This document shows, piece after piece, positions 17,794 to 58,600 of a stretch of DNA of 64,000 bases. The notes beneath the pieces were generated by a model that ran no database searches, was not told the DNA's origin, and saw only the letters and a program-made list of their open reading frames with translations. Origin of the DNA: an uncultured Chloroflexota bacterium (GTDB lineage: Bacteria > Chloroflexota > Anaerolineae > Anaerolineales > Anaerolineaceae). The position numbers and the translations under genes were made by a program. Position 1 is the first letter of the stretch. The number at the start of each line of letters is the position of its first letter. Location: positions 1 to 64,000 of the forward strand of contig CADACE010000026.1 in the NCBI GenBank assembly GCA_902786265.1, written 5' to 3'.

Positions 17794-18879
17794 TCAGTCT
17801 ATTGATTTCCAGCATTGCGGATCTTCCGCATAAAAAGAACCGTTCGTTCCTTTTGCCACAGCCGGACATCCCCGGCACCAGGCCAGCAATTTACAGCGGG
17901 AACATTTCGAAAATTTATCGTATTCCCGATAGGATTCCATTGATGTTACCCATACATCCGCAAGACGGTCTTCGAAAATATTGCCGACTTTGCTTTCCGG
18001 CACCCGGCGGCATGCATAAATATCTCCGGTCGGAAGGATCGTTATATGGCAGTTTCCGCAATTGCAGCCGCCGTAAATCATTCCCGGTTTTGCATCAGCG
18101 GGAATTTGGAATTCACCGTTTTCATATGCATAAAGCGTCCACAGGTGATCCTTCCTGTTGAAATATGTTTTGCACCCGGCCGCCTTATATTCCTTATATT
18201 TTCTGTCACATACTGCCAAAAGATCCCGATATTCCTGCGGTGTCATACCTGCATCCAGATCTCCGCCGCTGGGCACATAACGGGAGAATGCGAACACATC
18301 CACACCGGCTTTTACAGCCTCATCGATAATTCCGGGCACTTCCATCAGATTTGTTTTTGAAACGGTCGTCATAATAACGCTGCGGATACCTGCCCGTTTG
18401 ATACAGCCGACCTTCTCCAGTGTACAGTCGAATGAACCGGATTTCCGGAACCAGTCATGTGTTTCCCGAAGTCCGTCCAGCGAAAGCTGATATTTTTCAC
18501 AGCCGAACCATTTCAATTCACGACAGACCTGATCATTCAGGTGAAAAGGATTGCCGAGGATCGTAAACGACAAGTCATGTTCATGCAGCAACTCCAGCAG
18601 ACGCCAGAAATCCGGATGGAGGATCGGGTCTCCTCCTGTCAGATAGAAATACGGAGTACGGTGATATACTTCAGCAAAATCAAGACAGTTATAAAATGCG
18701 GATTCCAGCTGATCCCAGGTCATTGACTCAATACATGGATGCCCGCCGGAATAGATATAACAGTGCTTGCAGCGCTGGTCACAATTATCGGTGATATGCC
18801 ATTGAAAGGAAAAATAAGGGTCCATGTTCATTCTGTATAAAAATGGCCGGTGATTTTCTGATTGATATGGTTTGATCAC
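17794..18879 (-). CDS. Radical SAM/SPASM maturase of the ACGX peptide system
   Basis: This 361-residue protein is a radical SAM enzyme that probably modifies the neighbouring ACGX-repeat peptide. The radical SAM cluster ligands are C33, C37 and C40 (CDQRCKHC); LTGGDPILHPDF is the GGE-like motif. A C-terminal SPASM domain has many cysteines: GGCNCGNC, GDIYACR, CSRC, WCRGC and QCW, enough for two auxiliary clusters. SPASM proteins install thioether or other crosslinks in RiPPs. Its start lies 16 nt past the precursor stop, so the pair forms a short operon. The chemistry done on the peptide is not known from the sequence. Confidence 0.9.
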   Translation of the reverse strand: MIKPYQSENHRPFLYRMNMDPYFSFQWHITDNCDQRCKHCYIYSGGHPCIESMTWDQLESAFYNCLDFAEVYHRTPYFYLTGGDPILHPDFWRLLELLHEHDLSFTILGNPFHLNDQVCRELKWFGCEKYQLSLDGLRETHDWFRKSGSFDCTLEKVGCIKRAGIRSVIMTTVSKTNLMEVPGIIDEAVKAGVDVFAFSRYVPSGGDLDAGMTPQEYRDLLAVCDRKYKEYKAAGCKTYFNRKDHLWTLYAYENGEFQIPADAKPGMIYGGCNCGNCHITILPTGDIYACRRVPESKVGNIFEDRLADVWVTSMESYREYDKFSKCSRCKLLAWCRGCPAVAKGTNGSFYAEDPQCWKSID

Positions 18880-18895
18880 CGGCCGCTGAGTTCAG

Positions 18896-19129
18896 TTATT
18901 TATCTCCGGCACCGCAGGCACTTCCGCAGGCTGCCGGTTTTTCTTCCGGTTTATCTCCGGCACCGCAGGCGCTTCCACAGGCTGCCGGTTTTTCTTCCGG
19001 TTTGTCTCCGGCACCGCAGGCGCTTCCGCAGGCTGCCGGTTTTTCTTCCGGTTTGTCTCCGGCACCGCAGGCAGTTCCACAGGCAGATGATTTATCTGCG
19101 TTCCACTCAAACAAATTCGATAATGCCAT
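18896..19129 (-). CDS. ACGX-repeat RiPP precursor peptide
   Basis: This 77-residue peptide has a short leader-like start of about 15 residues (MALSNLFEWNADKSS) followed by a 17-residue unit, ACGSACGAGDKPEEKPA, present three times and then partly a fourth time. All eight cysteines are in ACGS/T-ACG-A doublets (C17/21, 34/38, 51/55, 68/72). This matches the ACGX-repeat target peptides known to occur beside a dedicated radical SAM/SPASM enzyme. GGAGG precedes the start by six nt. There is no adjacent exporter or protease. Whether the repeats are cut into separate products is unknown. Confidence 0.88.
   Translation of the reverse strand: MALSNLFEWNADKSSACGTACGAGDKPEEKPAACGSACGAGDKPEEKPAACGSACGAGDKPEEKPAACGSACGAGDK
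18899..19084 (-). repeat. 51-bp tandem repeats in the ACGX precursor gene
   Basis: The 51-bp unit coding for 17 residues is repeated about 3.6 times with near identity at the DNA level, so copy number could change by slippage or recombination. It is coding sequence and not a CRISPR array: no spacers separate the units. Confidence 0.85.
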
Positions 19130-19173
19130 TTTTTCCTCCGTTTATCATTTTTCAGAAATAAATCTTGTTATAG

Positions 19174-19179
19174 ATTATA
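19174..19179 (-). promoter_or_regulatory. Probable -10 box of the ACGX operon
   Basis: A TATAAT hexamer on the minus strand lies about 45 nt before the precursor start codon. The -35 region is not obvious. The 197-nt gap is shared with the divergent HxlR gene. Confidence 0.4.
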
Positions 19180-19326
19180 GAAAAACCGGACAAAAAGAAA
19201 AGTACGCACTTTTTTATGACTAAGGCACCTTTTTGTAACCTCTGGACGAATCAAAAATAATCCTGTATGCTATATATAAATAAAAGTATAAGTATGTTTT
19301 TATTACCCTTTTGAAAGGAAATCACC

Positions 19327-19674
19327 ATGAAAACAAAAGACGAACTGCCGGATTGTCCGGTCGCAACGACAGTGCAGCTGCTGGGAAGCAAATGGAAACT
19401 TCTGATACTGCGAAATCTTCTTACACGGCCCTGGCGCTTCAATGAATTGCGCAGGGACCTGGAAGGCATCAGTCAAAAGGTGCTCACGGACAGCCTGCGG
19501 TCTTTGGAAGAAGACGGGATCATCACTCGAAGTGTTTATCCGGAAGTTCCTCCCCGTGTTGAATATGCCATGAGCGAACTGGGTGAATCCATGCGTCCGA
19601 TCATTGATGCGATGGCAGAGTTTGGAATTCGCTATAAAGAATTGTCTCGTAAAAACACGGAGGAAAAAGCATAA
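19327..19674 (+). CDS. HxlR-family transcriptional regulator
   Basis: This 115-residue protein is a MarR/HxlR-type winged-helix regulator. The pattern GSKWKLLILRNLL-TRPWRFNELRRDLEGIS (two pieces) with VLTDSLRSLEEDGII is diagnostic of the HxlR domain. A single cysteine near residue 10 (PDCPV) is common in this family and can sense redox or electrophiles. It starts an operon with a flavin/ferredoxin protein four nt downstream and an MDR oxidoreductase. It is divergent from the ACGX operon, so the shared gap may hold its operator. Confidence 0.92.
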   Translation: MKTKDELPDCPVATTVQLLGSKWKLLILRNLLTRPWRFNELRRDLEGISQKVLTDSLRSLEEDGIITRSVYPEVPPRVEYAMSELGESMRPIIDAMAEFGIRYKELSRKNTEEKA

Positions 19675-19677
19675 ATT

Positions 19678-20289
19678 ATGGATATTGAAACCTGTTTGAA
19701 AAAACTGAGTTATGTCGGTGTTCTGGATTTCGCGACAGTCGATGAGAATGGTGCTCCACAGGTACGAAATATCAGCGCGATCCATTATGAAGGAACAACT
19801 TTATATTTTCTGACTGCAAGAGGAAAATCCTTCGCCCGGCAGCTGAAATCAGACGGCAGAATACAGATACTCGGGTACACAAAATACAAAGAAACGATCC
19901 GCCTTTCCGGTAAAGTTACAGAGGTACCGGAAAATGAGCAGATAAAATGGCGTGATATTCTGTATAGTGAGCAGCCATATTTGGAAAATGTATACCCCGG
20001 AGAAACGAAGAACATCGATACGATGTTTATGCTGAAGGACTATACGATCGAATATTTCTGCCTGTCCACCCGTCCCATCACCCGGGAATACTTTGCGGTA
20101 GGCGAGGCGAAAGTTATAAAGAAAGGCTATTGGATTTCCGAAAACTGTATCGGATGCGGAATCTGTCAGAGCATTTGTCCGCAGAGATGTATAGAGGAAG
20201 GAATACCTTACGTTATACAGGAAAATCATTGCCTGCAATGCGGGAATTGTTTTGAGAACTGCCCTGCTGAGGCTGTGATTCGATACTGA
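19678..20289 (+). CDS. Flavin split-barrel protein fused to a 2[4Fe-4S] ferredoxin
   Basis: This 203-residue protein has an N-terminal pyridoxamine-5'-phosphate-oxidase-like split barrel (about residues 1-130), the fold that binds FMN or F420. A C-terminal bacterial ferredoxin domain carries two complete CxxCxxCxxxCP motifs (CIGCGICQSICP and CLQCGNCFENCP). The arrangement suggests electron transfer between flavin and Fe-S clusters, for example in a reductase for small molecules. It follows the HxlR gene by four nt and is followed eight nt later by an MDR oxidoreductase, so the three are surely co-transcribed. The substrate is unknown. Confidence 0.88.
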   Translation: MDIETCLKKLSYVGVLDFATVDENGAPQVRNISAIHYEGTTLYFLTARGKSFARQLKSDGRIQILGYTKYKETIRLSGKVTEVPENEQIKWRDILYSEQPYLENVYPGETKNIDTMFMLKDYTIEYFCLSTRPITREYFAVGEAKVIKKGYWISENCIGCGICQSICPQRCIEEGIPYVIQENHCLQCGNCFENCPAEAVIRY

Positions 20290-20297
20290 GGTGTTAT

Positions 20298-21260
20298 ATG
20301 AAAATGATGAGAGCCGTAGTCCTGGATAAGATCACTCAGGCGAAAGATATTGTTCTTTCAGAATATCCGGTACCGGAAGTCCGCCCGGGCTGGGTGCTGG
20401 TGAAAGTAAAAGCTTTCGGTTTAAACCACTCCGAAAAACTGCTTCGTTTGAATGAGATCCGGGCGGATCACATTCGAAAGCCGATCATTCCGGGTATCGA
20501 ATGCGTCGGAGAAATCGTTGATCCATCGGACAGCGGACTCGAAACCGGGCAGAAAATCATTGCGCTTATGGGCGGAATGGGACGTTCTTTCAATGGCAGT
20601 TACGTGGAATATGCTCTGCTTCCGGCACGGATCGTTTTTCCGATAGAAAGTAACCTTCCATGGGATGTGCTGGGAGCTGTTCCCGAAACGTACTTTACCG
20701 CGTGGGGATCATTGTTCGAATGTCTGCATCTGACCGCAGAGGATACGCTGCTGATCAGAGGAGCGACCTGCGCGCTCGGATATGCCGCAATACAGATCGC
20801 AAAAGCACTGGACTGCCATGTGATCGCGACGACTCATCGCGCAGAAAAGCTTCCTCTGATCTCGGAAGCAGATGAAGCCGTGCTTGATGACGGAAAGCTT
20901 ACGGGGAAGATCCACGGCGTTTCCAAAGCGCTTGACCTCATCGGTCCGCGGTATCTGAAGGATACGCTAACCGCTGTGGAAAAAGGCGGCATCGTATGCC
21001 AGACCGGGCTGCTGGGCGGTGTTTATGTTTTGAACGGGTTCGATCCTATCAAGGATATTCCAAACGGTGTTTATCTGACGGGATTCTTCTCCAACTATCC
21101 AACACAGCAGATCGTTGATGATATTTTTGCATTTCTGAATGAAAAGGAACTTGTACCTGCCGGTGGAAGAGTCTTTGATTTTGCCAATATCAGAGATGCA
21201 ATCGCCGCGCAGGACGAGGGCAAAGTTAATGGTAAGATCGTTGTAAAAGTGCCTTATTGA
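20298..21260 (+). CDS. Zinc-independent MDR oxidoreductase (quinone-oxidoreductase-like)
   Basis: This 320-residue protein is a medium-chain dehydrogenase/reductase. It has the N-terminal GroES-like fold (GIECVGEIVD), and a Rossmann core with the motif RGATCALGYAAIQIAKAL around residue 150. The cysteine/histidine ligands of the catalytic zinc are missing, which places it with quinone oxidoreductase and enoyl reductase relatives using NADPH. It closes the HxlR operon. A role in detoxifying quinones or electrophiles together with the flavin/ferredoxin protein is an inference from context. Confidence 0.88.
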   Translation: MKMMRAVVLDKITQAKDIVLSEYPVPEVRPGWVLVKVKAFGLNHSEKLLRLNEIRADHIRKPIIPGIECVGEIVDPSDSGLETGQKIIALMGGMGRSFNGSYVEYALLPARIVFPIESNLPWDVLGAVPETYFTAWGSLFECLHLTAEDTLLIRGATCALGYAAIQIAKALDCHVIATTHRAEKLPLISEADEAVLDDGKLTGKIHGVSKALDLIGPRYLKDTLTAVEKGGIVCQTGLLGGVYVLNGFDPIKDIPNGVYLTGFFSNYPTQQIVDDIFAFLNEKELVPAGGRVFDFANIRDAIAAQDEGKVNGKIVVKVPY

Positions 21261-21527: not shown

Positions 21528-22856
21528 TTACTGATGACTTTTCTTCCTTGATTCATAGACCTTCAGCGCGAAAGCTTCCGGATCGGCTTTAAACGATATA
21601 CAATCCCGCTTCCGAAACAGACGCTGATACGGGCAGCCGCCGCGGCAGACGGGAAGCCAGACACATTCCCGGCACTCCGGGTCATCCAGTACGCCGCTCG
21701 TATTCAGATAGCCGGTAAGCAGATCGGGATGATCCGCGGTGTTCAGCGGATCCCTTGGGTCCCACTTCGCAGCGGTCCCGAAACTGTGCTCCGGTTTATC
21801 CGAATCTTCCCAGCATTTATTCAGCCTGCCCTGATCATCGACCCCGAGGTGCCATAGATTATTTGCCCCACAAAAGTGCCCTCTTGCCGGAGAAAAATCA
21901 CTGATTTGCTGCATGAGTCCGATCTCACCCTCATCCGAACCGCAAAGGAGATCCACCTGCTTTCCCCGTTTTTCGGCAGCCTGACTGTTCTTGACAAGGG
22001 ACGAATAATATCTCAGGTCATTGCCGCTTTCTTTCGCGATCTCTGCGATAAGAGCACGGAGTTTTTCGATTTCTGACTTATTTCCCGCATGCACATTGTG
22101 CCGGATATTGACACGACCCCGGATCTTCACGCTGCGGAGATTCTCCGTGATCCGCTCAAAGGTCGGACCGCCTCCGGCGAGATGGCGGGTGGCGTCGTGG
22201 GCAGCGCCGATGCCGTCCAGAGTGATCTGATAATGATTCACTTTCACGCGATCGAGCATATCCGCGTTCTTCCGGTCCAGCAGATATCCGTTGGTGATGA
22301 TTTCTGCTTCGTATTTCACACCTTTCCTCTCCGCGAGGCTGATCAGCCGCTCCGAAAGGGACTCTATCACATCCGGTACCAGCAGCGGTTCACCCCCGAA
22401 CCAGGTCACAGAAAGTGTTTTTGCCCCGGAAACATCCAGCATCCGTTCCGCGAGGGCTGCGATATCCTCCTGTACGGCAGTGCTCATTTTTCCGGATTTA
22501 TGGTTTTCAAAACAGTACGGGCAGTCAAAATTGCAGCCCATCGTCGGACTGATCGTAAGACTCACCTTAGAGGGAAAGGCACATGCGCCGCGGGCCATCG
22601 CTTCCAAAGCCGCCCGTTCATTAAAATTCACAAGGAACCCCAGTTTTACGAACTTCTGAAACACGGGGTTGTCTGTGGGGAGACGGTCCGGTGCGCTGAG
22701 CATCAGAATGTCGGAAAATCGCAGCGCCGCGCAGGAGCCTTTGTATAAGCTCACGACCGCGAACAGGTTTTCGTCCGGTATCTTCGCGGAAATGAGAAAA
22801 TCCGATACATGATATCCGGCTTCCGCAGCGGTTAGGGTTTTTGTTTTGTCGTCCAT
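21528..22856 (-). CDS. Radical SAM/SPASM peptide maturase
   Basis: This 442-residue protein has an N-terminal domain of about 95 residues, then a radical SAM core with C108, C112 and C115 (CNFDCPYC) and the SAM motif WFGGEPLL. The C-terminal SPASM region ends with CRECVWLPVCRGGCP and a later cysteine. The layout matches RiPP maturases and anaerobic sulfatase-maturase-like enzymes. The start at 22856 is chosen because AAGGAG lies just upstream; an ATG nine codons earlier has none. A truncated NHLM-type ABC exporter is upstream on the same strand, so the two probably served one peptide pathway. No precursor was found nearby. Confidence 0.88.
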   Translation of the reverse strand: MDDKTKTLTAAEAGYHVSDFLISAKIPDENLFAVVSLYKGSCAALRFSDILMLSAPDRLPTDNPVFQKFVKLGFLVNFNERAALEAMARGACAFPSKVSLTISPTMGCNFDCPYCFENHKSGKMSTAVQEDIAALAERMLDVSGAKTLSVTWFGGEPLLVPDVIESLSERLISLAERKGVKYEAEIITNGYLLDRKNADMLDRVKVNHYQITLDGIGAAHDATRHLAGGGPTFERITENLRSVKIRGRVNIRHNVHAGNKSEIEKLRALIAEIAKESGNDLRYYSSLVKNSQAAEKRGKQVDLLCGSDEGEIGLMQQISDFSPARGHFCGANNLWHLGVDDQGRLNKCWEDSDKPEHSFGTAAKWDPRDPLNTADHPDLLTGYLNTSGVLDDPECRECVWLPVCRGGCPYQRLFRKRDCISFKADPEAFALKVYESRKKSHQ

Positions 22857-22875
22857 AAGCGTCTCCTTGTAATGA

Positions 22876-23058
22876 GGTGTCAATGATTAGTGGTCGGTGG
22901 TCAGTGGACGGTGGTCAGGCGTCACGCTCCAAGTGTCAGATCTCAGGTTTTGGGTTTCAGGTGTCAGGTGTGTTTTGGTGCCGCTTCGCGATGAACGCTC
23001 TATTTCGAATTTTTCAATTCTTATTTTCTGACCACTGATCACTGACCACTGACAACTG
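22876..23058. repeat. Word-like repeats filling the ABC/radical SAM spacer
   Basis: The space holds GTGGTCAGTGGACGGTGGTC-type repeats (22876-22918), AGGTGTCAGGTGTG-type repeats (22935-22972) and TGACCACTGATCACTGACC-type repeats (23029-23058). The first and last are roughly reverse complements, so the spacer could fold as a long stem-loop. Similar words are found at 112-165, 12184-12214 and 25097-25122. Confidence 0.7.
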
Positions 23059-23071
23059 CGTTCCGCATTCT

Positions 23072-24742
23072 CTAAACTTTCTGTCTTGCGACCAAATCGG
23101 CGAAGAGGCCACCTTTTTCCATCAGATCCTCATATGTCCCCTGTTCGGCGATCTTTCCGCCATCAAGCACCAGGATCCTGCCGCAGTGCTGCACGGTAGA
23201 CAGGCGATGGGCTACGACGATCCGGGTGCAGTGCAGGCTTTCCAGTGAATCGGTAACATGCTTCTGGGTGATGTTGTCCAGGGCGCTGGTCGCCTCATCC
23301 AGGATCAGGATCTTCGGGCTGCCGCAGATGGCCCGGGCGATCATCAGCCGCTGTTTCTGTCCGCCGGAGATGCTTCCGCTGTTTTCAGACAAAAGCGTAT
23401 TCATTCCCATGGGCATTTTGCGGATGTCCTCAGCGATCCCGGCCAGCTCGGCCGCTTTCCAGGCATCATCGACGGAAGAGGAAGGGGAGGCAAGGATGAT
23501 GTTGTTGTAGATATCGGCGGAAAACAGACTGCCGTTCTGCATCACGGTGCCGATGTGGCGCCGCAGGGAACGAAGATCGGTCTTCTCTGTGTCATAAGCG
23601 GCGGGGCCGTATACGACGCTTCCGCTCTCCGGCTTTTCAAAACCGAGCAGCAGGCGGATCAGGGTGGATTTGCCGCAGCCGGACCGGCCTACAATGGCAA
23701 CATACTCGCCGGGACGGACCGAAAAGGAAAGGTCCTGAAGGATCATCCGGCTGTCCTTATTATAGCGGAAGGAAACGTTCCGGACGTCAAGGGAGCCGTC
23801 CAGTCTGGGAACGATCACTTTTTCCGATGAGATCTCCGGGACAGCTTCCAGGATCGGGGCGGTCATCTCGATCACCGGTCCGATTTTCACTGCCTGCGAG
23901 GCCAGGTCCGCGAAGGAAAGGATGGCGGCGCTCATCTGTCCGTACGCGGCGCTGAACGCCATGTAGGCGGTGACGGTCATCTGCTCTCTGCCTGCGAAAT
24001 AACAGATCAGGATGCTCCCGAGCATGCCGATAAAATTCACACAGGCGGGCAGAGCCTGCAGTACGACCGGCCGGTTGAATTCCGCCCGGGCATAAGCGGC
24101 GTAAGCGTGCGCCCATCTGGCAAAAGCCCGGTTTTCCGCTCCGGACAGTTTGATCTTCTGGATACCGTGAAGCATGCCGGCCGCGGCGCCGGACAATACG
24201 GCGTTCGCGTCCATAGACTGTTTTTCATAGCGGGAAACCGCGATCGCCGTGTAGATCGTGAAAAATGCCTGGATGAATACAGCCAGAAAAGCCGGAAACG
24301 TCAGCGCGGACGCGTAGCGGGAGATCTGGATCAGGTAGAAGATCGAAAGCAGGAAAGTCAGTCCCGTCCCGAGCAGCAGTTCGGTAAGCTGTTGTGCGAG
24401 GTCGCTGATTTGCGCGATGCGCTGGGAAAGGTTCCCGGAGGAGAATTTTCTGAAGAAAGAGGGCGGCAGCATCAGCACACGGGCGTACGCTGCGGATTCC
24501 GTATATACGCGCAGTTTGACCGCTGCCCGTCCCCGAATCATGGAGCGGATGGAATCGATCAGGATCCTGGAGATGCTGACCCCCAGCAGCAGTACGGTGA
24601 TCGGCGCGATCAGTTCTATCTTCCCCGCTGGAATGACAGTCCCGTAAACCAGATTGTTGACCCACGCGGGGAGCAGCCCCATCAGTACCGCCGCGATCGC
24701 GGCAAGAAGAACAAAGATCCAGTCCCCCGTCCCAAACAGGGA
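23072..24742 (-). CDS. NHLM-type bacteriocin ABC transporter, 5'-truncated
   Basis: This is the C-terminal part of an exporter with fused membrane and ATPase domains. The first in-frame ATG is at 24682, but clearly homologous sequence continues upstream (FGTGDWIFVLLAAIAAVL) to about 24734 before homology stops; a stop codon lies at 24776-24778. The membrane domain has about five or six helices. The ATPase has Walker A GRSGCGKST, signature SGGQKQR and Walker B ILILDEATSALD. NHLM-family exporters normally have a further 250-300 residues at the N-terminus, missing here. It may be a pseudogene or the product of a rearrangement. Confidence 0.82.
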   Translation of the reverse strand, partial: SLFGTGDWIFVLLAAIAAVLMGLLPAWVNNLVYGTVIPAGKIELIAPITVLLLGVSISRILIDSIRSMIRGRAAVKLRVYTESAAYARVLMLPPSFFRKFSSGNLSQRIAQISDLAQQLTELLLGTGLTFLLSIFYLIQISRYASALTFPAFLAVFIQAFFTIYTAIAVSRYEKQSMDANAVLSGAAAGMLHGIQKIKLSGAENRAFARWAHAYAAYARAEFNRPVVLQALPACVNFIGMLGSILICYFAGREQMTVTAYMAFSAAYGQMSAAILSFADLASQAVKIGPVIEMTAPILEAVPEISSEKVIVPRLDGSLDVRNVSFRYNKDSRMILQDLSFSVRPGEYVAIVGRSGCGKSTLIRLLLGFEKPESGSVVYGPAAYDTEKTDLRSLRRHIGTVMQNGSLFSADIYNNIILASPSSSVDDAWKAAELAGIAEDIRKMPMGMNTLLSENSGSISGGQKQRLMIARAICGSPKILILDEATSALDNITQKHVTDSLESLHCTRIVVAHRLSTVQHCGRILVLDGGKIAEQGTYEDLMEKGGLFADLVARQKV

Positions 24743-25084
24743 GGGGAAATCAACCCATGCACATCCCTGGCCGGGCTATTTGCGCTGAGAGGGATCCATA
24801 TGGAAAATGTGAAAACGGACGGCCTTCAGAAAGTACTGACCGAAGGACGCTTTATATCCGCGATAACAAAGACCATCGGTGAGAAACTCCGAGAAAACAA
24901 AAAATGCGGAAGCTGCGCTTACGCGGCGGCCTGCCAGGGCGGATGCCCGGCTCTTTCCATGATCTCCTCCGGAGGCAGTATGCTTTCCTCGGACGAATAT
25001 AAATGTGCCTTTTTCTTCGGCGGCTGGTACGAAAAATTCTGCAATGTCATGGGAGACTGGAAGAACCTGAATCCGATCAATTAA
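24743..25084 (+). pseudogene. C-terminal fragment of a radical SAM/SPASM gene
   Basis: On the plus strand an open frame encodes GGEINPCTSLAGLF, a typical start of a SPASM domain (GEI-x-PC). It continues to CGSCAYAAACQGGCPA, the C-x2-C-x5-C-x3-C block, and a final YKC. The radical SAM core with its CxxxCxxC is absent: homology begins at about 24743, where the ABC gene on the other strand also begins to lose homology. An ATG at 24800 could start a 94-residue remnant. It differs from the SPASM proteins at 17794 and 21528, so it is a third maturase, now broken. Confidence 0.75.
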
Positions 25085-55646: not shown

Positions 55647-58600
55647 ATGAAAAATACTAACAGGATATTGATTCTTGTCTTAAGTTTGCTCATTACGGCA
55701 TTTGCAGTTTCAGCGGTTTCAGCGCAGAATTGTATCTGCCTTGACGCAAACGGTGTGAAATATCCCTCTTCGGCACCCGCAAACTCGGTGTGTTATATAT
55801 GCGGGCAGGATGGCTGTACACCGACAGCTCTTACGCTTTCGTATTGTCAGCCACCGGTCAGAGAGGATACACCGGTCCAACAGCCTGAGGTATTACCGCA
55901 GAACCCAAATCCTGTGCCTGTTGTACAGGAACAAGTTCCTGTTCCGCAGAACGATACATGGGATTGGAATCCCAATCCGGTACCTGTTATACAGGAGCAA
56001 ATCCCCGTTCAGCAGAATGATACATGGGATTTTGATCCCAATCTGGTACCTGTCGTGCAGGAGCAATTCCCCGGTCAGCAGAACGAATTGTGGGAAGATA
56101 ACCCTGTTCAGCAGCCTGTTGTGACGGTTGAAAACTCTGAACAGGAAATTGAATTGGTGATTTGGGATAACTCAAACATAAATCCTGAATATCCGGAACA
56201 GAATGAAACATCCGGTGAATATGATGAATTCAATTGGCTGACAGATGAAGAAATCACGCCGGAGCCCGAAGTCACGAAAACAATAATACCCACTGAAGTA
56301 TATGATCCGGAGCCTGTTGTTACGGAAACGGAAGAACCCGGTGAAGTAACCATCCCGGAATTTGTCGTTACGGAAACGGAAGAGCCCGGTGAAGTAACCA
56401 TCCCGGAATTTGTTGTTACGGAAACAGAAGAACCCGGTGAAGTAACCATCCCGGAATTTGTCGTTACGGAAACGGAAGAGCCCGGTGAAGAAATCACCCC
56501 GGATCCCGAAGTAACGGAAACGGAAGAAATCGGAGAAGAAATTCCCCCGGATCCCGAAGTAACGGAGACGGAGGAGCCCGGTGAAGAAATCACTCCGGAT
56601 CCCGAAGCAACGGAAACGGAAGAAATCGGAGAAGAAATCACCCCGGATCCCGAAGTAACGGAAACGGAGGAGCCCGGTGAAGAGATCACCCCGGATCCCG
56701 AAGTAACGGAGACTGAAGAGCCCGGCGAAGAGATCACCCCGGATCCCGAGGTAACGGAAACGGCAGAACCCGGTGAAGAGATCACCCCGGATCCCGAGGT
56801 GACGGAAACGGAAGAACCCGGAGAAGAAATCACCCCGGATCCCGAGGTAACGGAAACGGAAGAGCCCGGTGAAGAAACTACCCCGGAACCGGATATGGAT
56901 ATTTCTCCTGCAGCGCTGGAAGAGCTTTCCCAAATTCTGTCAGAAGAGGAATTGTCAAATCTTTCTTCGATCCTGACCATGGAATGGCTGAATGCGAATG
57001 TCGATCAACTCTCTCAGGAAACATTGATTGAATTGCTGGCTCTTTTTGGAATCAACATTGAAGGGCCGCTCAACGAATTACTTAGTGGTGACGGATCTCT
57101 TCCTTCAGTCAAGATCGAGGGTGAACTGACTGATCTGCTGCTTTTCTCTCCTACCGGGGGAACTGTAACAACGTCAACCGTTCCGTTCGTCTGGCTCTAT
57201 GCATATGACGGGGAAACCGGTCCCACAGATGTAACTTTCCTGCTGCAGCTGACGATTTCAACCGCCTCCGATACGGCAACTATCAACACAACCGTATCAT
57301 CTGTTTCCTGCGGCAGCAATATCTGTACATATTCCGCGGATCTGAGAGCATATAACAATTCGCTGGTAAGCTGGACCGTAAGCGGCATCTATAAGAGCGG
57401 TGCGACCACGGTGACCGTCCCCGGTCCCGCGGCACAGTCTTTTGCCCTGAAATTTGACAAACCGGTGCCGCCCAAACCTGAGAAAAAGCCGGAAGTTCCT
57501 GTTCTGGAATGTCCTTATGGCCCGTACGAAGTGCGGAAAATCGGGTTCTATTGGGCTCCTTCACTGTATTCCGAATGGTATACAGTTGAGTGGCATGATA
57601 ACAGAGGCCATCACGGGTCGGAAAATCTCAGCAACAGTGACCCGTCCTGTAAAAGCGGACGCTGTGTGGTTCATTTGATGATGCCCGGTGATGGTAACTA
57701 TGCGTGGAGAGTTGTAGCAAAAAACAGTAAAGGTTCAACACCTTCCGGCGAAATGAATTTCTCAATCAGGTCCGGCGTTCCCACTCCTGCTCCGTACAGT
57801 CCCTCCGGAACTCTCAACAGTGGCAGCAATATCGCTTTTGATTGGCAGCACGTCGGTAACGGAGTAACGGATTACCGCATCCAGGTTGTCAGCAACAGCG
57901 ACAATTCCATGCGTATGGACCGCTGGTTCAGTGTTTCCGATATCTATGTCGGCAGCGGTGAATGCTATGTACGGACAGATCTGTATCTGCCAGCCGGGTC
58001 TTACAGCTGGCGTGTTCAGGCTTCCAATGGAAGCTCAACCTCCGGATGGTCTTCCTGGAAGGGATTCAAGATAAACGGATACAGCGGACCGGTAGTCTAT
58101 AATTACGCGAATACGATTCCTTCCTGTCTGTATCCGACCGGAACGATCACCGTCACTTCGCCGAATTTCCAGTGGCGCACAGTTACAGGCGCTGCCTATT
58201 ATATGGTGAAGCTTTATGACAGCACAGGCACAGTCCTGTTCGACCGCCAGGTGGCTTCCTCCGGTAATTGCACAGGTGAAATATGCACCTGGGCACCGGA
58301 TTATAAGCTGACGAAGAACGGAAATTATACCTGGAGCGTTTTGAGCTATGGCGGGAACAACGCTCTTTGGAGCCGTGCTTCCGGTTCATTCTCCCTGCAG
58401 GGTGTCGTGCAGCAAAAACCGATGAGTTTTGTCAGCCCGGCACAGAATGGTCTGCTGACTCAGGATTCTCCGGTCATTATCTGGACTGATCCGGGCGCCA
58501 ACACGGCAATTTTCCATGTCGAGATTTTCAGCAGTGCCAATAAGAATCTGTTCACCGCGGATCTCAACCGTGAACAGGCCTGGTGCGACGGTCAGACTTG

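Follow-up and report, generated by a model that had tools for sequence, protein, structure and literature searches.

The window, the whole stretch of 64,000 nucleotides analyzed here, from an uncultured member of the Anaerolineaceae, contains a locus whose gene families identify it as the acgA/acgM pair of the known ACGX system, consisting of a repeat-bearing precursor peptide (AcgA) and a radical SAM/SPASM maturase (AcgM). The pair itself was already known; new here is its genomic context, which comprises an HxlR regulator, operator-like elements, redox enzymes and, in relatives, SirTM and Zn-macrodomain genes (Table 1). The acg locus is very probably a redox/thiol-stress module. Taken as a whole, the explanation developed below, in which acgA and acgM belong to a module for thiol or electrophile stress and yield a thiooxazole product that buffers sulfur redox state or metals inside the cell, is put forward tentatively, with confidence a little short of even.

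Table 1. Features of the acg locus and its flanking genes in the window
Feature	Position	Strand	Basis and remarks
acgM, radical SAM/SPASM maturase	17794..18831	-	TIGR04340; 345 aa from ATG 18831, ATG 18825 also possible
Hairpin, 10-bp stem GGCCGGTGAT/ATCACCGGCC then ATTTTTAT	18845..18884	-	Folding
acgA, ACGX-repeat precursor peptide	18896..19129	-	TIGR04341; leader MALSN[IL]xxW common to relatives
Operator-like element AAAAAGTGCGTACTT	19200..19214	-	Conserved across loci
Second operator-like element GTTACAAAAAGGTGCC	19224..19239	-	GTTACAAAAAGGT conserved across loci
HxlR/DUF24 regulator, single N-terminal Cys (DCPVATTV), divergent from acgA	19327..19674	+	PF01638, E 3e-31
PNPOx-like flavin domain fused to two 4Fe-4S sites	19678..20289	+	PF01243, PF00037; in 30/55 acg operons
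MDR-type NAD(P)H quinone-oxidoreductase-like protein	20298..21260	+	TIGR02824-like, 140 bits, ADH_N; in 27/55 acg operons

The acgA/acgM pair and its repeated unit

The sequence-only reading placed a radical SAM/SPASM gene beside a 77-residue precursor with four ACG-x-ACG doublets in 17-residue repeats and proposed that both proteins be searched against family models. Both pass the cut-offs of their NCBIfam models, AcgA with 85.2 bits against TIGR04341 (target_ACGX; E 3.5e-24, cut-off 28) and AcgM with 576 bits against TIGR04340 (rSAM_ACGX; cut-off 400), which upholds this part of the reading. The window agrees with the other members of the ACGX system in gene order, leader and motif, and the gene names are those used in the NCBI annotation of a Roseburia plasmid. 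It differs in that its redox enzymes lie on the HxlR side, whereas those of other members lie downstream of acgM, and in that its SirTM and Zn-macrodomain genes are unlinked to the locus.

The 77 residues of AcgA include eight cysteines and begin with a 15-residue leader (MALSNLFEWNADKSS), followed by (ACGxACGAGDKPEEKPA)x3-ACGSACGAGDK, such that four ACGxACG doublets recur at 17-residue spacing. Unmodified and with its initial Met, the peptide has a calculated monoisotopic mass of 7361.16 Da. The underlying DNA forms an array with a 51-bp period (3.6 copies, 94% matches), and the copies show five synonymous and two nonsynonymous codon differences, one of the latter being the terminal stop at the end of the last copy. 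The match to TIGR04341 and the retention of the frame in relatives indicate that the acgA reading frame is real. The precursor statistics cover 77 precursors, including that of the window, with 486 cysteines in total; they come from 80 AcgM loci (at least 513 relatives were confirmed), and these loci are not phylogenetically independent, many of the genomes being metagenome bins. Two conserved clusters of upstream open reading frames proved to be acgA and the HxlR gene read in antisense.

The invariant unit of these precursors is A-C-G: glycine follows 483 of the 486 cysteines and alanine precedes 477. The distances between cysteines vary, with gaps of 13 (177 cases), 4 (156), 9 (58) and rarer values. 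The earlier suggestion that the doublet, together with its DKPEEKP linker, makes up a crosslinked module repeated along the peptide, in which two cysteines (or a cysteine and the linker) would be joined once per 17-residue repeat, accords with the precursors of the window and its same-genus relative, which consist of doublets throughout with no single ACG units, and with the occurrence of at least one doublet in 73 of the 77 precursors. However, only 14 of the 77 place every cysteine in a doublet, lone ACG units separated by 9 or 13 residues occur commonly, and an archaeal relative lacks doublets and has another linker. The scarcity of all-doublet precursors, together with the doublet-free archaeal relative, indicates that selection holds A-C-G, not the doublet, as the unit, and we regard crosslinked doublets as very improbable. 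Modification of AcgA site by site is the probable alternative.

The archaeal locus, on plasmid pNP174 of Methanosphaera sp. ISO3-F5 (L135:4440-8024), contains HTH, 4Fe-4S, peptide and MDR genes, and its radical SAM gene is broken into two frames. Its peptide is a far relative of AcgA with ACG-x-E repeats such as TACGTEIVSSACGGEVS. The plasmid search that included this locus also returned two bacterial ACGX loci and otherwise distant radical SAM proteins.

AcgM carries the CxxxCxxC motif and SPASM cysteines. Its radical SAM motif starts at residue 17, which leaves no space for an N-terminal, peptide-binding RRE, and the protein is without this domain; AcgM would recognize the short MALSN[IL]xxW leader. 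Its AlphaFold2 model (pLDDT 81) matches SkfB, SuiB, anSME and the sactipeptide/ranthipeptide-type maturase 5WHY. The sequence-only reading had the enzyme gene begin 16 nt after the precursor, at GTG 18879. This codon lies inside the hairpin, and the initial ATG of acgM in the same-genus relative corresponds in the alignment to ATG 18825/18831 of the window, so that the start is likely at ATG 18831 or 18825 and the gap measures rather ~64-70 nt and includes the hairpin.

A second, diverged AcgM (491 bits) is encoded in the same genome (G000, contig C14; L021:6244-8235, minus strand). Its gene directly follows that of a membrane protein, which matches the TPM domain weakly and has the tail SSSSCGSCSGGGGGSCGGGSSCGGGGGSGF, and no ACGX peptide occurs nearby; the enzyme may act on a protein tail, not a small peptide. 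The membrane protein has no relative in 13 other genomes of the genus.

Putative regulatory elements and redox neighbors

Each of the 64 loci that extend far enough upstream has a divergent HxlR gene on that side of acgA. Of the 72 acg-linked HxlR proteins, 63 contain a single cysteine, and the CPV(A)TTV motif places it near the N-terminus; the window protein has the PF01638 domain, and its relatives keep CPVATTV. In regulators of the HxlR/DUF24 type, a conserved N-terminal cysteine serves as the sensor of quinones, diamide, HOCl or aldehydes (PMC6943732, PMC7835342). By analogy, the single-cysteine HxlR protein, a repressor or possibly an activator, would sense reactive species, and such species would be the stress signal of the acg module.

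Two operator-like elements accompany these genes. GTGCGTAC occurs at about -67 to -107 in 68 of the 77 acg loci, with the consensus AAAAAAGTGCGTACTTGT, and GTTACAAAAAGGT occurs upstream of the AAAAAAGTGCGTACTTGT element in 54 of the 77; in many relatives, this second element is an inverted repeat, GTTAC-AAAAAG-GTAAC. In four genomes of the genus, the exact 15-mer of the AAAAAAGTGCGTACTTGT-type element is confined to acg loci, and the site in one of them (G006) shares a contig with an AcgM fragment. Within the window, the HxlR, PNPOx/ferredoxin and MDR genes on the plus strand and acgA-acgM on the minus strand share the promoter region 19130-19326. Through contact with the putative operator, HxlR would control both sides of this region, with acgA-acgM on one and its own gene, the PNPOx/ferredoxin protein and the quinone-reductase-like enzyme on the other.

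The gap between the precursor and enzyme genes likewise holds a conserved hairpin. That of the window has a perfect 10-bp stem and a folding energy of -19.2 kcal/mol (z -4.76), and that of the same-genus relative is different in sequence and equal in strength (z -4.69). Across the 68 loci with a foldable gap, 58 have z < -2 relative to mononucleotide shuffles. A terminator scan of the window called no canonical terminator, nor did it call this hairpin, which has a 20-nt loop. The structure is probably an attenuator or an RNA-stabilizing stem, and it would tune the ratio of the two products, favoring the precursor over the enzyme.

All 55 loci whose sequence reaches 4.5 kb past acgM encode at least one redox enzyme there: quinone-reductase-like MDR proteins in 27, nitroreductases in 30, PNPOx/ferredoxin proteins in 30 and ferredoxin-nitroreductases in 9. 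In the same-genus relative, all of the neighbors seen in the window except HxlR are downstream of acgM, and the fact that the same genes are kept together despite this rearrangement supports a common regulon. These neighboring oxidoreductases would serve the modified peptide. One acg operon (L094:2702-3625) has a spore-photoproduct-lyase-like radical SAM frame between its PNPOx/ferredoxin and macrodomain genes.

Secretion is the fate of many radical SAM peptides known so far, and AcgA could similarly be an antimicrobial or signaling peptide that leaves the cell through an exporter and a protease of general use whose genes lie elsewhere. An NHLM-type ABC protein is encoded in the window, at 23072-24682, but it adjoins another radical SAM gene; no recurrent cluster of exporter, protease or immunity genes was found in the 80 loci, the leader of ~15 residues has no signal peptide or GG cleavage site, and the constant pairing is with redox enzymes instead. 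The claim that no exporter is nearby stands for the conserved operon, but the window has the ABC protein within 21528-24682, seemingly part of a separate cluster. Secretion is accordingly a poor prospect in our view. With HxlR and redox neighbors constant and a sirtuin frequent, in bacteria of the gut and rumen, the locus resembles an intracellular stress device more than it does a secreted antibiotic. The AcgA peptide is probably not exported; acidic and soluble, it would stay in the cytosol as a multi-site sulfur redox or soft-metal buffer.

The region at 21528-25084 contains the second radical SAM gene (TIGR04463-like, below the cut-off), the gene for the ABC protein, which is short of its N-terminus by ~150 positions, and, on the plus strand, an isolated SPASM fragment, and is perhaps a decayed peptide cluster. 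No convincing Cys-rich precursor was found near the radical SAM/ABC genes at 21528-24682. Elsewhere in the window, a 48-bp tandem repeat at 56246-56887 (13.4 copies, 84% matches) neighbors a 66-bp array at 55901-56086.

Candidate chemistry of AcgA

The openly licensed literature yielded no description of the ACGX product, its chemistry or its role, in keeping with the sequence-only reading, which called product and chemistry poorly described. The nearest characterized radical SAM/SPASM family to AcgM by profile score is SbtM (TIGR04082), from Geobacter lovleyi. The SbtM model ranks second among NCBIfam models for both the window AcgM (168 bits, next 120) and the C14 paralogue (170 bits, next 115), and it matches all 40 AcgM proteins scanned. 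The 168 bits are below the cut-off of 350 and leave the first ~197 model positions unmatched (match 198-515 of 516), SbtM having ~190 additional N-terminal positions. By these profile scores, AcgM appears akin to SbtM but is not a member of that family, and it may still work like one. No SbtM genes were detected in 151 Chloroflexota genomes at 1e-60, and six other genomes searched for SbtM each gave one AcgM-type match below the SbtM cut-off.

SbtM acts on Cys or Sec, and AcgA contains no Sec; from a cysteine, SbtM takes four hydrogens to form a thiooxazole (PMC11002830). By analogy, AcgM would oxidize each Ala-Cys-Gly unit on its own to a 5-thiooxazole, with four hydrogens lost and the sulfur kept as an ionizable thiol. 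We consider a thiooxazole product possible, though somewhat doubtful; it ranks first among the candidate products, with Cys-Asp/Glu thioethers next.

In other 5-thiooxazole peptides, the modified sites are Cys-Gly pairs within repeated cassettes, and one of their clusters has no protease nearby (PMC12538549). Captophorins, bufferins and bulbicupramide, which are made by MNIO enzymes, resemble AcgA in these repeated cassettes, and the cluster without a nearby protease is that of Microbulbifer (PMC12668002, PMC12538549). They differ in their enzyme, which is a multinuclear nonheme iron enzyme with a partner protein, and bulbicupramide has KCG whereas AcgA has ACG. The binding of Cu(I) by 5-thiooxazole peptides with repeated Cys-Gly sites (PMC12538549, PMC12668002) would fit AcgA as a copper-type metal buffer like the captophorins, with the redox enzymes secondary. 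However, acg loci have no recurrent cluster of copper regulator, P-type ATPase or chaperone genes, no metal transporter or metal sensor was seen in the acg context, the regulator is HxlR rather than of the CsoR/CueR type, and the thiooxazole chemistry is itself drawn from analogy. A dedicated copper buffer is improbable.

AcgM might instead be a ranthipeptide maturase, which would join the cysteine sulfur to the beta or gamma carbon of an Asp or Glu at +4 (CX3D/E) and produce a chain of small thioether rings. PapB, a radical SAM/SPASM enzyme like AcgM, forms CX3D and CX3E thioethers and tolerates spacings of 0-6 residues (PMC9413430), and the CX3D/E pattern is present at many AcgA cysteines: of the 486, 275 have Asp and 41 have Glu at +4, and in the archaeal relative an acid also follows CG, at +3. 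AcgM matches the PapB model (NF047865) with 70.6 bits, below its cut-off of 340; this model comes 15th in rank, its score not reaching half that of SbtM. Although an acid at +4 is common to most ACG units (316 of 486), some units lack one, and the first cysteine of a doublet has another cysteine in that position (156 of 486), such that the common C-terminal ACGxACGAGDK offers two cysteines and one acid. Moreover, a thioether needs neither Gly at +1 nor Ala at -1. Thioether formation by AcgM is unlikely on this evidence.

Distribution and the SirTM/Zn-macrodomain link

ACGX pairs occur widely among anaerobes of the rumen and gut, with Ruminococcus bromii and Butyrivibrio among the commensal carriers. 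Among 400 Chloroflexota genomes, AcgM was detected at 1e-60 in the genome of the window alone, and within its genus AcgM exceeds the cut-off in 2 of 14 genomes, with a fragment in a third. In the tree, the window AcgM pairs with that of Flexilinea (98/96) inside a Bacillota-dominated set, a placement most simply explained by lateral acquisition of the acg locus from Firmicutes of the gut or rumen. Both the genome of the window and that of the same-genus relative are drafts, at 89% and 87% completeness, respectively, with ~5% contamination, and a few taxon labels among the loci (e.g., Succinivibrio, L024) may be binning errors.

Downstream of acgM, a sirtuin gene is present in 36 of 55 loci and a macrodomain gene in 32, often overlapping, as opposed to 1 of 44 for each on the upstream side. 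Roseburia sp. 831b is an example of a carrier with such a linked operon. The sirtuin is of the SirTM type (PDB 5A3A, E 1.9e-75), with QGDYG and a Gln replacing the deacylase His, and the macrodomain is of the Zn type (SpyMacro 8RSI, E 3e-78), with the zinc motif GC[FY]xxxHxC. Neither is present in the acg operon of the window. The same genome has Zn-macrodomain, SirTM and DUF1848 genes in tandem on contig C5 (G000 C5:80801-83446; L120:4802-7447), and the acg operator is absent from that locus. No SirTM gene is near acgM in 19 of the 55 loci, and SirTM is present in members of the genus without AcgM above the cut-off; since each occurs without the other, acg and SirTM are independent of each other. 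The SirTM-DUF1848 order recurs in Roseburia (L136), and in another locus (L096) the macrodomain gene has a DUF1848-like frame next to it; DUF1848 may thus act in connection with SirTM.

Known extended SirTM operons act on GcvH-L, a lipoyl carrier that they modify (PMC4518038, PMC11490716). The operons of acg relatives likewise end in Zn-macrodomain and SirTM genes with tiny gaps, and likewise combine flavin/NAD(P)H oxidoreductases with a sulfur carrier and its modifying enzyme. In contrast to the extended operons, acgA/acgM take the place of GcvH-L/LplA, the regulator is HxlR, nitroreductase/MDR enzymes stand in place of OYE/LLM, and in the genome of the window the pair is on another contig. 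The main texts of both papers on these operons (PMC4518038, PMC11490716) make no mention of radical SAM, and no report of SirTM together with HxlR was found in the openly licensed literature.

A further and quite unlikely extension would make the modified ACGX peptide the anaerobe counterpart of lipoyl-GcvH-L, a multi-site sulfur redox carrier switched by SirTM, reset by the Zn-macrodomain and controlled by a thiol-sensing HxlR. ADP-ribosylation by SirTM of the Asp/Glu residues or the modified cysteines of the peptide would then be an attractive possibility. To our knowledge, such a carrier, if real, would be the first radical-SAM-modified peptide to serve as a regulated intracellular redox protein.

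With its regulator, operator, redox enzymes and SirTM/Zn-macrodomain linkage, an orphan peptide gains a concrete thiol-stress hypothesis. So far a single SirTM target, GcvH-L, is known, and which proteins the other SirTM/Zn-macrodomain systems act on is an open question (PMC11490716), on which the linkage of acg to SirTM bears. Should the modified peptide be such a carrier, it would represent a second target class for SirTM.
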